NCBI RefSeq assembly: GCF_015277855.1
Contig: NZ_CP063812.1
Coordinates: 744,001-808,000 of the forward strand
Length of the DNA stretch: 64,000 nucleotides
Direction: 5' to 3'
DNA from: Microbacterium cremeum
Lineage (GTDB): Bacteria > Actinomycetota > Actinomycetes > Actinomycetales > Microbacteriaceae
The position numbers were made by a program, and so were the translations under genes. This document shows positions 60,415-64,000 of the stretch, in pieces (the stretch's first letter is position 1; each line of letters opens with the position of its first letter). The notes under the pieces are model-generated. The model had not been told where the DNA came from, did not search any database, and saw only the letters and a list, made by a program, of their open reading frames with translations.

Positions 60415-61788
60415 ATGACCAAGCTCCGGCTGGCGATCGTCGGTGCAGGACCGGCGGGCATCTACGCCGCCGACATCCTGCTGAAGGCCGAGCGCAAGTT
60501 CGACGTCTCGATCGATCTCTTCGAGCAGCTGCCGGCGCCGTACGGGCTCGTCCGGTACGGCGTCGCGCCCGACCACCCGCGCATCAAGGGCATCATCACG
60601 GCGCTGCGCGAGGTGCTCGACCGCGGCGACATCCGGCTCTTCGGCAACGTCCGCTTCGGTGAGGACATCTCCCTCGAAGACCTCAAGCGCCACTACCACG
60701 CCGTGATCTTCGCGACGGGGGCGATCCGCGACTCCGATCTCGACATCCCCGGCATCGACGCCGCCGGATCGTACGGGGCCGCGGACTTCGTCAGCTGGTT
60801 CGACGGCCACCCCGACGTTCCCCGCGAGTGGCCGCTGGATGCGGCATCCGTCGCCGTCATCGGCAACGGCAACGTCGCGCTCGACATCTCCCGCATGCTG
60901 GCCAAGCACGCCGACGACCTGCTGCCCACCGAGATCCCCGACAACGTCTACGAGGGGCTCGCCGCCTCGAAGGTCACCGACGTGCACGTGTTCGGCCGTC
61001 GTGGCCCCGCGAACGTCAAGTTCACGCCGCTCGAACTGCGCGAACTCGGCGAGCTGCGCGACGTCGACATGGTCGTCTACGACGAGGACTTCGACTACGA
61101 CGAGGCCTCGCGCGCCGCGATCGCCAGCAACAAGCAGGTCATGGTCATCGACCGCGTGCTGCAGTCGTGGCGCAAGCGCGACTCCGTCAACAACGCCGGC
61201 GGCACCGCGTCGCGGCGTCTGCACCTGCACTTCTACGCCAAGCCGCTCGAAGTGAAGACGGATGCCGAGGGCCGGGTGTCGTCGTTCGTGTACGAGCGCA
61301 CGCGTCCCGACGGCGAGGGCGGCGTGGTCGGCACCGGTGAGATCCGCGAGGTGCCGATCCAGGCGCTGTACCGTGCGGTCGGCTACTTCGGCTCGCCGCT
61401 GCCGGGCGTGCCGTTCGACATGCGGCACGGCGTGATCCCCAACCGCGAGGGGCAGGTGCTGAGCACGGACTCCAACCAGCGCGTGAACGGCGTCTACGCG
61501 ACCGGCTGGATCAAGCGCGGGCCGGTCGGCCTCATCGGCCACACCAAGTCCGACGCGATGGAGACCATCCGCCACCTCATCAACGACCAGGGCACGTGGT
61601 GGCAGCCGGCGGACCCGTCCGAGAAGGCGATCCCCGAACTGCTGGCGTCCCGCGGCGTCGCGTGGACCGACCTCGAGGGGTGGCACCGGCTCGACGAGCA
61701 CGAGATGGCCCTGGGCGCACCGAGCGAGCGGGCTCGCATCAAGGTCGTGCCGCGCGAGGACATGGTGAGCATCTCCCGCGGCGAGTGA
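60415..61788 (+). CDS. FprA-type ferredoxin-NADP reductase
   Basis: A 457-residue flavoprotein close in size to mycobacterial FprA (adrenodoxin reductase-like). FAD binding: RLAIVGAGPAGIYAADILL (about 4-22). Family motif: PYGLVRYGVAPDHPRIKGI (about 42-60). NADP binding: VAVIGNGNVALDISRMLAK (about 145-163) and HVFGRRGPANVKFT. C-terminal FAD contact: YATGWIKRGPVGLIGHTKSD (about 361-380). It should pass electrons between NADPH and ferredoxin. The ATG at 60415 has GAAAGGA about 6 bases upstream. Confidence 0.93.
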   Translation: MTKLRLAIVGAGPAGIYAADILLKAERKFDVSIDLFEQLPAPYGLVRYGVAPDHPRIKGIITALREVLDRGDIRLFGNVRFGEDISLEDLKRHYHAVIFATGAIRDSDLDIPGIDAAGSYGAADFVSWFDGHPDVPREWPLDAASVAVIGNGNVALDISRMLAKHADDLLPTEIPDNVYEGLAASKVTDVHVFGRRGPANVKFTPLELRELGELRDVDMVVYDEDFDYDEASRAAIASNKQVMVIDRVLQSWRKRDSVNNAGGTASRRLHLHFYAKPLEVKTDAEGRVSSFVYERTRPDGEGGVVGTGEIREVPIQALYRAVGYFGSPLPGVPFDMRHGVIPNREGQVLSTDSNQRVNGVYATGWIKRGPVGLIGHTKSDAMETIRHLINDQGTWWQPADPSEKAIPELLASRGVAWTDLEGWHRLDEHEMALGAPSERARIKVVPREDMVSISRGE

Positions 61789-61811: not shown

Positions 61812-62810
61812 ATGGCCGGGCAGCTCCGACAATGGGTCCCAGATGTCCTCGGGGCTCCGTTCGAGCAGCTGACCTTGCCGCTCGGGGTCGACGACGAGGC
61901 CGGGCCTGTCGTCGCGACTCTGGTGCGCACCATCCCGAACCCTCTCACGTCGCTGTTCGCGCCGCTGCGCGACGTCGACGTGCTGGCGGTGCACGGCTGG
62001 TCGGACTATTTCTTCCAGCGCGAGGTGGCGCAGTTCTGGACGCGGCGCGGTGCGCGCTTCTACGCCCTCGACCTGCGCCGGTACGGGCGCAGCCTGCGCG
62101 ACGGTGACGCGCCGGGCTACATCGACGACCTCGACGACTACGACGCCGACATCGAGGCGGCGCTCGAGGCGATGGGGCAGACGGATGCCGGCACCCGGCG
62201 CCGGCTGGTGCTCCTCGGTCATTCGACCGGCGGTCTGACACTGACGCTGTGGGCGGACCGGCACCCGGGGCGCGCCGCCGCGCTCGTGCTCAACAGCCCG
62301 TGGCTCGAGTTGCAGCTCGGTGCGATCGGCCGCCAGGCGCTCGCGCCTCTCGTCGAGATGCGCGCGCGGCTGGACCCGCGCGGGTCGCAGCCGGCGGTCG
62401 ATCTCGGCTTCTACACGCGCGCCCAGGCCGAGATCGGCACCCTTCCGGCGGGGGAGGAGCAGGCGGCGTGGCGTCCCGAGCGCGGCTTCCCGACGGCGCC
62501 GGGCTGGCTCGCCGCGGTGCTGGACGGCCATCGCCGCGTCGCCGGCGGCGTCGAAGTCGGCTGTCCTGCGTTCGTGCTGCTCTCGGCCGAGTCGACCCCG
62601 CCGCTCGCGTGGCGGGACTCCATGACGTCGACCGACTCGGTACTGTGGGTCGACGACATCGCGCGGGCGGCCACGCGCATCGGGCGCCTCGTGACCATCG
62701 CGCGCATCGAGGGTGCGATCCACGACGTGTTCCTCTCGCGTCCCGGACCCCGTGCAGCGGCGTTCACGACGCTCGCGGAGTGGCTCGACGGCTACGTCGC
62801 ACGCGGCTGA
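61812..62810 (+). CDS. Alpha/beta hydrolase (lysophospholipase-like)
   Basis: A 332-residue alpha/beta hydrolase. The oxyanion region is DVLAVHGWSDYFFQREVAQF (about 56-75), the nucleophile elbow is LVLLGHSTGGLTLTLWADR (Ser about 138), an acid is likely in the STPPLAWRDS/DSVLWVDDI region, and His is in IEGAIHDVFLSRPG (about 303). It resembles the monoacylglycerol lipase-like serine hydrolases. It lies next to menaquinone genes but is longer than MenH and lacks its typical GHSMGG, so it is not called menH. Confidence 0.8.
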   Translation: MAGQLRQWVPDVLGAPFEQLTLPLGVDDEAGPVVATLVRTIPNPLTSLFAPLRDVDVLAVHGWSDYFFQREVAQFWTRRGARFYALDLRRYGRSLRDGDAPGYIDDLDDYDADIEAALEAMGQTDAGTRRRLVLLGHSTGGLTLTLWADRHPGRAAALVLNSPWLELQLGAIGRQALAPLVEMRARLDPRGSQPAVDLGFYTRAQAEIGTLPAGEEQAAWRPERGFPTAPGWLAAVLDGHRRVAGGVEVGCPAFVLLSAESTPPLAWRDSMTSTDSVLWVDDIARAATRIGRLVTIARIEGAIHDVFLSRPGPRAAAFTTLAEWLDGYVARG

Positions 62811-62814
62811 CAAA

Positions 62815-62834
62815 TGTCCCCCGAAGAGGGGACA
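62815..62834. terminator. Hairpin after the hydrolase gene
   Basis: TGTCCCC-CGAAGA-GGGGACA forms a perfect 7-bp stem starting 4 bases after the stop. There is no U tract, so it may end the hydrolase mRNA weakly. Confidence 0.45.
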
Positions 62835-62856
62835 GCGATGGTTCTACCAATCGGGA

Positions 62857-62862
62857 TACACT
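62857..62862 (+). promoter_or_regulatory. -10 hexamer TACACT of the candidate small RNA
   Basis: The hexamer ends 7 bases before the first base of hairpin 1 (62870). No convincing -35 is seen. Confidence 0.35.
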
Positions 62863-62869
62863 TCTACAC

Positions 62870-63010
62870 GAGGTGTCCCCAGCGCCTCACGGGAAGGCCC
62901 TCCCCAAGATCCTTCCCAGATCACGTCGTCAGGTGCCGTTCGCCGGGGGGTGGACGAGCGAATTATCGACGACGACAGGCCCCGGGTGTCCCCAGCACCC
63001 GGGGCCTTTT
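62870..63010 (+). ncRNA. Candidate small RNA with three C-rich hairpin loops
   Basis: About 141 nt with no credible reading frame. Hairpin 1 (62870-62888) is GAGGTG/CGCCTC with loop TCCCCAG. Hairpin 2 (62891-62917) is GGGAAGG/CCTTCCC with loop CCCTCCCCAAGAT. Hairpin 3 (62978-63006) is GGCCCCGGGTG/CACCCGGGGCC with the same loop TCCCCAG, followed by TTTT. The three TCCCCA loops could pair with G-rich ribosome-binding sites. The plan resembles actinobacterial 6C-type RNAs, which expose C-rich loops, but the loops here have four C in a row, not six, so it is not called 6C. A G-rich run (62944-62950) could pair with a loop. Confidence 0.5.
62978..63010 (+). terminator. Strong intrinsic terminator
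   Basis: Perfect 11-bp GC stem GGCCCCGGGTG/CACCCGGGGCC, 7-base loop TCCCCAG, then TTTT. It is the only terminator here with a T tract among the hairpins noted in the window. Confidence 0.85.
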
Positions 63011-63084
63011 CGTTGCCCGCGAGGTGTGAGAAACGCGGATGCCTCGAGCGGGCATTCTGCGGACCGGGGGCGGAGCTTCAACCG

Positions 63085-64000
63085 ATGACGATCCCGCGAA
63101 CGCTCCGCTCTCCTGGTGCGATCAGCCCTGACGCCCCTTGTAGCCCGCTCGCCCCATGGCGCGCGGCTCGCCTAGCGCGCGCGGCTCGCCCCAGCGCCCA
63201 CCGGTCGCCACGCCCCGCGCCGGCCAGCCGCTGCGCCGGGGTCAGCGCATGCGACCTGCCACACCTCGCGATCGCGAACGATCCGCACTCGTCGGTCATC
63301 TGCGTCGTCGATGCGGTGCACCTGGGGGACGACCTCCGCGACGGCAGGCCGCTCATCGGATCCGTGAGGCCGGGCGATGACAGGGGCGACTTCGGATCGC
63401 GCGCGCGCCAAGCGATCTCGTACCTCGAGTGCGCGACGCTGATCACCTTCGTGAACTGGGAATCGACGCCCACCGCGGAACTGTCGATCCTCATGGCGAT
63501 CACCTCCCATCTCAATCCGACGGCACGGGTCCGTCTCTCCCGCGGGCCCGCAGAAGACGTCCATGCCCTGCTCGCGGCTGGGCGGAGCGCGCCCCCGCTG
63601 CTCGAGCGGGCCGGGTGGGTCCACGCCCTCAACGATGAGCACGGTCCCGACATGACCGATCGCCGCGTGACGACGTCGCGGTACGAGCAGCCGCGGCCGT
63701 TCCACCCAGGCCGACTGTCGACGGTGTTGGACGAACTCGATTCCGGTCGACTGGGGGACCATCCTCCGGTCGGCCGGCTTCTGTCGCCTCGCGACCCGTG
63801 CCGGCGTCCTCGCGCGCTGGAACCATGTCGGCTCGGCGATCTGGATCGACCCGATCGCCGCGGATGTGGAGACCGCGACGACGGCGCAAGACCTGCCGTT
63901 CACGGGCCTCGACCTCGACGTGTACGGAATTCGCGACGCGCTCGACACCGCCGCGATCACAGATGACGAGCTCGCCGCCGGTCCTGTGGCCTGGAGCCGT
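63085..64000 (+). pseudogene. CobW/G3E GTPase-like protein, frameshifted and lacking its P-loop end
   Basis: From about 63,270 the frame reads SSVICVVDAVHLGDDLRDGR, then ATLITFVNWEST and DRRVTTSRYEQPRPFHPGRL, which match the end of the CobW GTPase part and the start of the CobW C-terminal domain (metal chaperone family). At 63753-63757 a run of five G breaks the frame. With four G the next frame continues as RSAGFCRLATRAGVLARWNH and SAIWIDPIAAD, again CobW-like, open to the window end. No Walker A motif is found upstream; 63085-63260 is low-complexity with repeated GCGCGCGGCTCGCC, so the 5' part looks lost or degenerate and the start is uncertain. Confidence 0.6.

Follow-up and report, generated by a model that had tools for sequence, protein, structure and literature searches.

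A probable small RNA with C-rich hairpin loops beside a conserved palindrome in Microbacterium cremeum

Positions 62868-63010 of a 64,000-nucleotide stretch of the Microbacterium cremeum chromosome (the window, that is, the whole stretch analysed; positions 744001-808000 of the 3.98-Mb chromosome C1) probably form the gene of a ~140-nt small regulatory RNA with C-rich loops. We consider it likely that this RNA is a trans-acting, multi-copy C-loop sRNA of Microbacterium, probably activated through a neighbouring palindromic operator and acting by loop pairing. The features of the region are as follows.

60415..61788, forward strand: gene of a pyridine nucleotide-disulphide reductase, further upstream, FprA-like (Pfam PF07992, E 1.4e-8); its start (60415) was placed by analogy with a relative genome (G019).
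61812..62810, forward strand: alpha/beta hydrolase gene (Hydrolase_4; Pfam PF12146, E 4.9e-19), upstream of the RNA.
62815..62834, no strand assigned: palindromic operator TGTCCCCCGAAGAGGGGACA, TGTCCCC-N6-GGGGACA, 20 bp with 7-bp arms and a 6-base centre.
62839..62849, no strand assigned: second partial dyad TGGTTCTACCA, between operator and -10, matched by eye.
62857..62862, forward strand: -10-like hexamer TACACT, 22 nt past the operator, with no good -35.
62868..63010, forward strand: small RNA gene, an inferred transcript starting at about 62868 (fold z -4.7, homologues, no conserved ORF).
62870-62888, forward strand: hairpin 1 (SL1), stem GAGGTG/CGCCTC, loop TCCCCAG, from the sequence and the fold.
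62891-62917, forward strand: hairpin 2 (SL2), stem GGGAAGG/CCTTCCC enclosing CCCTCCCCAAGAT, with CCTCCCCAAG in the loop, from the sequence, the fold and relatives.
62924-62971, forward strand: hairpin 3, a long imperfect stem with a GGGG apical loop, from the predicted fold.
62978-63006, forward strand: terminator hairpin, 11-bp stem GGCCCCGGGTG/CACCCGGGGCC, loop TCCCCAG, then TTTT at 63007-63010.

An initial annotation of this DNA had placed a structured small RNA at 62815..63010. Its extent holds from ~62868 onwards, and the part from 62815 to about 62867 is to be read as promoter and operator DNA. The three hairpins showing TCCCCA that it described, two of them with an identical TCCCCAG loop, are found when the sequence is read and recur in other species; the terminator with its TTTT is equally present, and TACACT does lie 7 bases before the first stem, which begins at 62870. 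A fourth hairpin, that with the GGGG loop at 62924-62971, had been overlooked, as had the genus-wide operator and neighbouring RNAs with a complementary motif. In folding calculations, none of 200 shuffles was as stable as 62865-63015 (z = -4.7), and the same was true of 62811-63015 (z = -5.7; 0/200). According to structure prediction and covariation, the C-rich motif of the window RNA lies in apical loops. The loop 9-mer GTCCCCAGC taken alone is not enriched in the genome of M. cremeum (34 matches vs 35 for the reversed control). The GGGG apical loop of hairpin 3 (62945-62948), identical in 4/7 aligned rows, could pair with the C loops of the window RNA itself; GCCGTTCGCCGGGGGGTGGAC of the same hairpin is also the same in 4/7 aligned rows.

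This copy of the RNA is intergenic and non-coding, with an intrinsic terminator. In agreement with the initial annotation, which had seen no protein-coding explanation, the orthologues contain no conserved ORF: the longest sense ORFs of five of them have 63, 43, 27, 43 and 0 codons. Because of these lengths, and because the 71-codon frame at 62814-63029 begins at the operator, a small ORF was rejected as an explanation. No clean gene was found at 63100-64000, which separates the RNA from DUF520, the following gene just past the window end, and the forward frame 62713-63963 has no Pfam match.

A DNA search with the window RNA gave matches in 10/58 genomes (its own included), all of the same genus. 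Three relatives match over almost the full query length (G019 and G028 at 84-85%, G017 at 70%); the match in G012 is partial, two matches are limited to the terminator-like end, and those in four further genomes to 21-25 bases at the palindrome. From predicted folds and our own reading, 15 RNAs share one plan, namely the operator, about 20-22 nt, a TANNNT hexamer, hairpins whose loops resemble TCCCCAG and, at the end, a GC-rich hairpin that often has TCCCCAA or TCCCCAG in its loop. These RNAs, hereafter C-type, are found in two or more genomic contexts, next to the hydrolase gene or next to argA-like and radA-like genes, and in other species further copies lie upstream of the operators of cspA type. 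The composite pattern GGGGACA-N20..23-TANNNT-N5..35-TCCCCAG was found in 65/345 genus genomes, that of M. cremeum included (73 matches, some of which look like chance; reversed control 1/345), and this strict form is missing from the other 280/345. M. cremeum has a second C-type RNA near C1:1274866, with no exact operator there. At two loci (G012:C3:1531122-1531308 and G520:C1:1093551-1093738), two C-type RNAs stand divergently back to back, each with an operator-like site.

Covariation in relatives, which the initial annotation had named as a check on the RNA, is observed: the stems co-vary around a constant loop. Stems of at least 4 bp flank 59/67 TCCCCAG motifs from 36 C-type loci, vs 14/65 in the background, and the loop stays constant while the stems vary (22 different 5-bp stems). 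Among 42 distinct flanks, stem positions 1-4 are paired in 38, 41, 36 and 40 cases, the maxima of 2000 shuffles being 36, 37, 29 and 34; positions 5 and 6 are paired in 28/42 each (shuffle maxima 30 and 27). The loop core has a mean unpaired probability of 0.94 (66 motifs), vs 0.32 over the transcript. In an alignment of seven sequences (A1), SL1 and the terminator are 96.6% paired, and 3/17 of their pairs have changed on both sides, a number matched by 2/500 shuffles; further pair types are no more numerous than in shuffles (328/500). The hairpin 1 stem by itself is 100% paired in A1, with 2 pairs changed on both sides. A strict scan for terminators with a T-tail was passed by only 8/36 C-type loci, and by 2/36 in the antisense direction.

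The operator pattern occurs in 124/149 genus genomes (that of M. cremeum included), with 1-5 sites per positive genome and none in the reversed control. Its centre has 6 bases at all 21 sites of 9/10 genomes, though 3-12 bases were allowed in the search. The stricter form TGTCCCCCNNNNGGGGGACA is present in 7/10 genus members vs 2/238 other genomes in a sample of the order. In a collection of 84,980 species it occurs in at least 115 stretches; among the matches listed, 46 belong to Microbacterium, 4 to Microbacteriaceae and 65 to scattered other taxa. The last were taken to be there by chance and served as the control, in which TCCCCAG lies beside the palindrome on 2/110 sides vs 20/204 genus sides, and CTGGGGA, the exact complement of the TCCCCAG loop, on 3/110 vs 35/204. 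Near C1:2988397 (L028:2794-2985), M. cremeum also has five CCCCC-N4-GGGGGAC palindromes in series, spaced 34-54 bp, near the gene of a small protein that looks secreted and has no Pfam match.

At 104 operator sites, the recurring neighbours are genes that we take, from their sequences, to be cold-shock protein (23), argC (9) and CsbD-like (5), which suggests a regulon for stress or growth. When the 461 proteins encoded near these sites were clustered and the 45 commonest families inspected by eye, no regulator was recognised, TetR excepted; TetR neighbours were seen at 4/104 sites at a median distance of 836 bp, and one was confirmed as TetR. The gap from operator to -10 was counted at 36 loci with 20-23 allowed: it is 20 in 2, 21 in 11, 22 in 23 and 23 in 0. 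A dyad like TTGGT-N3-ACCAA, as at 62839..62849, marks one subtype of C-type promoters and also precedes the second copy near C1:1274866; it is possibly the site of a second regulator.

The relation between palindrome and promoter was analysed on each side of the operator. The first set held 101 sites (202 sides), in which some genomes and loci were not chosen by the palindrome alone: ten genomes had been picked for matching the window RNA or the palindrome, and some loci had been taken around RNA matches. As this set thus held genomes chosen for matching the window, the count was repeated on a strictest set with the palindrome alone as bait (87 loci and 88 hits, 2 of them dropped near a locus end, giving 81 distinct sites and 162 sides). 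Near-identical flanks were removed, and all counts are uncorrected for species relatedness. In the 101-site set, TA dinucleotides show peaks at particular spacings from the operator, where they are followed by T as sixth base more often than the background of 0.21. At +21/22, 18/23 TA sides are TANNNT (p=7e-9), and TCCCCA follows on 15 of these 18. At +18, 22 sides carry TANNNT and 18 of them a run of six C. At +2/3, 14/19 TA sides have T as sixth base (p=1.3e-6), and these 14 show CTGGGG in 11 cases (at 20-75 nt) and TCCCCA in 2. At +8-10 there are 19 TANNNT sides (CTGGGG 6, six C 3), and at +14 there are 3, all with CTGGGG. The remaining 129 sides have CTGGGG 7 times, TCCCCA once and six C 7 times; the frequencies in random windows of the M. 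cremeum genome are about 1.0% for CTGGGG, 0.6% for TCCCCA and 0.6% for six C.

In the strictest set, TANNNT is found at +20-23 on 10/19 TA sides (p=2e-3), with TCCCCA on 7/10 and CTGGGG on 2, and at +18 on 21/23, with six-C hairpins on 18/21. It is found on 8/13 TA sides at +2/3 (p=1.7e-3; CTGGGG 5/8, TCCCCA 2), on 18/22 at +8-10 (p=2e-9; CTGGGG 6/18) and on 3/4 at +14 (CTGGGG 3), so that CTGGGG lies on 14/29 sides when these three classes are pooled. The other 105 sides have CTGGGG 6 times, TCCCCA once and six C 6 times. The spacing between palindrome and -10 is linked to the kind of RNA that follows, and this link holds in the strictest set, where it is less sharp for the +2/3 class. Since TANNNT sits at preferred distances from the palindrome, the readings of the latter as a repeat element or as an RNA hairpin are disfavoured.

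If the hexamer is assigned to -12 to -7, the centre of the operator falls near -44 in the C-type class, at -40.5 in the six-C class and at about -25 in the +2/3 class. From general promoter knowledge, the first two positions are activator-like, and we infer such a position for C-type and six-C promoters; in the +2/3 class, the operator would lie between -35 and -10. A putative regulator, presumably a dimer, would bind the 20-bp palindrome. Because the window RNA has its operator centre near -44, a position open to activators, this regulator would probably switch the RNA on. The ~140-nt transcript would then show UCCCCAG in its hairpin loops, as folding and covariation indicate, and these loops may pair with CUGGGGA or with other GGGG-bearing RNAs, as those of sX13 and 6C do.

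Part of the target pool may, more speculatively, consist of RNAs with CUGGGGA that adjoin the operator (G-type) and that would titrate the sRNA or be silenced by it. The pattern GGGGACA-N2..14-TANNNT-N5..35-CTGGGGA was found in 30/345 genomes (34 matches; reversed control 4/345). The left end TGTCC of the operator, which the pattern does not demand, is present in 29/30 listed loci (27 with TGTCCCC), and 12 of the 30 genomes contain the C-type pattern as well (Fisher p 0.005, uncorrected for relatedness). The genome of M. cremeum has no exact match to this CTGGGGA composite pattern; its G-type candidate, which carries three CTGGGG motifs, follows the operator at C1:70723. In a model that does not cover kissing loops, cofolding of the window RNA with this candidate was not better than with shuffles (-3.1 vs -3.7 +/- 3.1 kcal/mol). 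The second copy gave -9.5 vs -2.6 +/- 3.2 kcal/mol under the same model, one shuffle reaching -12.9. At two pairs of loci (L017/L260 and L074/L245), a G-type and a C-type RNA seem to converge on a common terminator-like hairpin.

The accessibility of the motif in G-type RNAs is intermediate (0.52-0.57 vs a transcript mean of 0.34); it mostly lies outside closed 7-nt loops (13/70 vs 11/65 in the background), and the terminator scan does not favour the G direction (2/33 sense vs 3/33 antisense). At nine cspA-type loci, moreover, the CTGGGG-like sequence beside the operator mostly comes from reading a C-type RNA, encoded on the cspA strand, in reverse. The assumption that every CTGGGGA beside an operator marks a G-type RNA was therefore partly withdrawn, and the motif was counted only on sides with a TANNNT of their own. 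As a consequence of the weak motif exposure, the terminator scan and the cspA antisense, the G-type class is supported mainly by its promoters. At cspA-type loci such as L116, L149, L166 and L196, one strand carries in succession a further C-type RNA, preceded by a separate -10-like box, the operator, a short RNA with a CTCCCCCC hairpin and the cold-shock gene. One possible role of this six-C hairpin is that of a cspA leader or attenuator.

The cspA-type loci and the terminator scan are also what speaks for taking the G-type RNAs as mere antisense readings of C-type genes, a genuine possibility that we nevertheless find doubtful. Antisense readings would not account for the hexamers of the +2/3 sides in the 101-site set (sixth base T in 14/19, CTGGGG in 11/14), an argument that is weaker in the strictest set (8/13 and 5/8 at +2/3, 18/22 with CTGGGG on 6/18 at +8-10). 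In view of that set, slightly more weight was given to antisense readings and slightly less to the two-geometry scheme set out below. The complementarity being symmetric, the C-loop RNA might conversely be a sponge and the CUGGGGA RNAs the active regulators of UCCCCAG-bearing mRNAs, in line with the intermediate accessibility of their motif. However, exposure is higher in the C-type loops (core 0.94), whose structure is also constrained, whereas G-type stems are background-like, and this inversion of roles appears quite improbable.

Identical 7-nt loops repeated on variable stems, in more than one copy per genome in M. cremeum and elsewhere, would equally suit a decoy sequestering an RNA-binding protein specific for UCCCCAG loops, in the manner of CsrB/RsmZ. 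The recurrence of the exact complement CTGGGGA beside the same operator is, however, predicted by pairing and not by a decoy, which makes the latter improbable. Finally, the palindrome begins 4 nt past the hydrolase stop codon and a terminator closes the region, as if there were no separate RNA and the hairpins and a bidirectional terminator belonged to the 3' UTR of the hydrolase gene. This is highly improbable given RNAs of the same plan after the operator beside argA-like and radA-like genes, and given TANNNT at the preferred operator distance.

Pairing of exposed loops was also at the core of the initial annotation, which had proposed a riboregulator masking GGGGA ribosome-binding sites. 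A structured sRNA with exposed C-rich loops agrees with our results; masking gained little support from 334 predicted starts, drawn from 464 kb (about 12%) of the M. cremeum genome. In this sample, biased as the starts were picked by AGGAGG score, CTGGGGA occurs 0 times and TGGGGA 3 times at -30..+10, and GGGGA occurs 16 times at -30..-6 vs 8 times at -60..-31. Loop pairing was therefore kept as the proposed mechanism; the CUGGGGA RNAs beside the operator would be the best-matching candidate targets. Beyond this, it can tentatively be proposed that one genus-specific regulator uses one operator in two geometries, turning C-loop RNAs on (operator centre near -40 to -44) and CUGGGGA RNAs off (operator over the core promoter), so that a single signal would flip the ratio of sRNA to anti-sRNA across a stress regulon including cspA; taken as a whole, this scheme is rather unlikely. 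MerR-like operators lie between -35 and -10, and MerR-like control at G-type promoters, a candidate reading, would reverse the sign of control there.

A genus-wide operator whose distance to the -10 tracks the kind of RNA would suit the study of loop-loop regulation and of sRNA antagonism in high-GC Gram-positives, which are not known to have Hfq. It would also explain conserved intergenic palindromes beside cspA-, argC- and CsbD-like genes. Among the matches listed from the open-licence papers of PubMed Central, often a small share of all matches, none described an sRNA of this sort or such an operator for Microbacterium; as these papers alone were covered, this is weak evidence of novelty.

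Comparison with Rfam gave no family at its gathering cut-off in the 64-kb window, and 11 related loci gave three tRNAs only at gathering and no sRNA family. At E<=10, positions 62700-63150 have 11 matches, the best being sX11 (20.8 bits vs a cut-off of 70) and none being 6C (RF01066, gathering 47 bits), which is also absent at E<=0.001 from the whole M. cremeum genome; the remark of the initial annotation that the RNA recalls 6C without equalling it is thus borne out. With sX13 (RF02232), the window RNA scores 17.3 bits vs a gathering cut-off of 50 (E 0.54) and is not a member. Five other genus genomes (L079, L080, L081, L083, L084) have 6C matches at E<=0.001, three of them over the cut-off, and the operator pattern was not found within these five loci. 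LhrC of Listeria and the UCCC-motif sRNAs of S. aureus belong to another phylum than Microbacterium.

As far as the consulted parts of these papers go, 6C (B11 in M. tuberculosis) is an actinobacterial sRNA with C-rich hairpin loops (PMC4046766, PMC8628891). The window RNA is likewise actinobacterial with C-rich loops; 6C has two stem-loops with about six consecutive C, and the window RNA three loops with runs of 4 C. From the excerpts of its description, sX13 of Xanthomonas has three stable stems capped by C-rich loops (4C/5C), is Hfq-independent and targets G-rich motifs near starts (PMC3771888). With its three C-rich loops it is the nearest known sRNA in working principle, although those excerpts describe neither such an operator nor a complementary partner RNA (PMC3771888). 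LhrC and the S. aureus sRNAs, likened here by description rather than by sequence comparison, are multi-copy, with redundant UCCC sites and one regulator for all copies, and the portions of the source used mention no mirror RNA under the same operator (PMC4132741). Target binding by C-rich loops or UCCC motifs is reported for 6C and LhrC in the same partial sources. Known sRNA/sponge pairs, to the extent that the excerpted accounts cover them, likewise include an RNA whose complementarity may let it titrate an sRNA; unlike in these, both kinds of RNA here adjoin one operator with different promoter geometry, and titration would be the corresponding role of the CUGGGGA RNAs. Outside both Rfam families tested (6C and sX13), the window RNA thus appears to fit the C-rich-loop (UCCC) kind of trans-acting sRNA.
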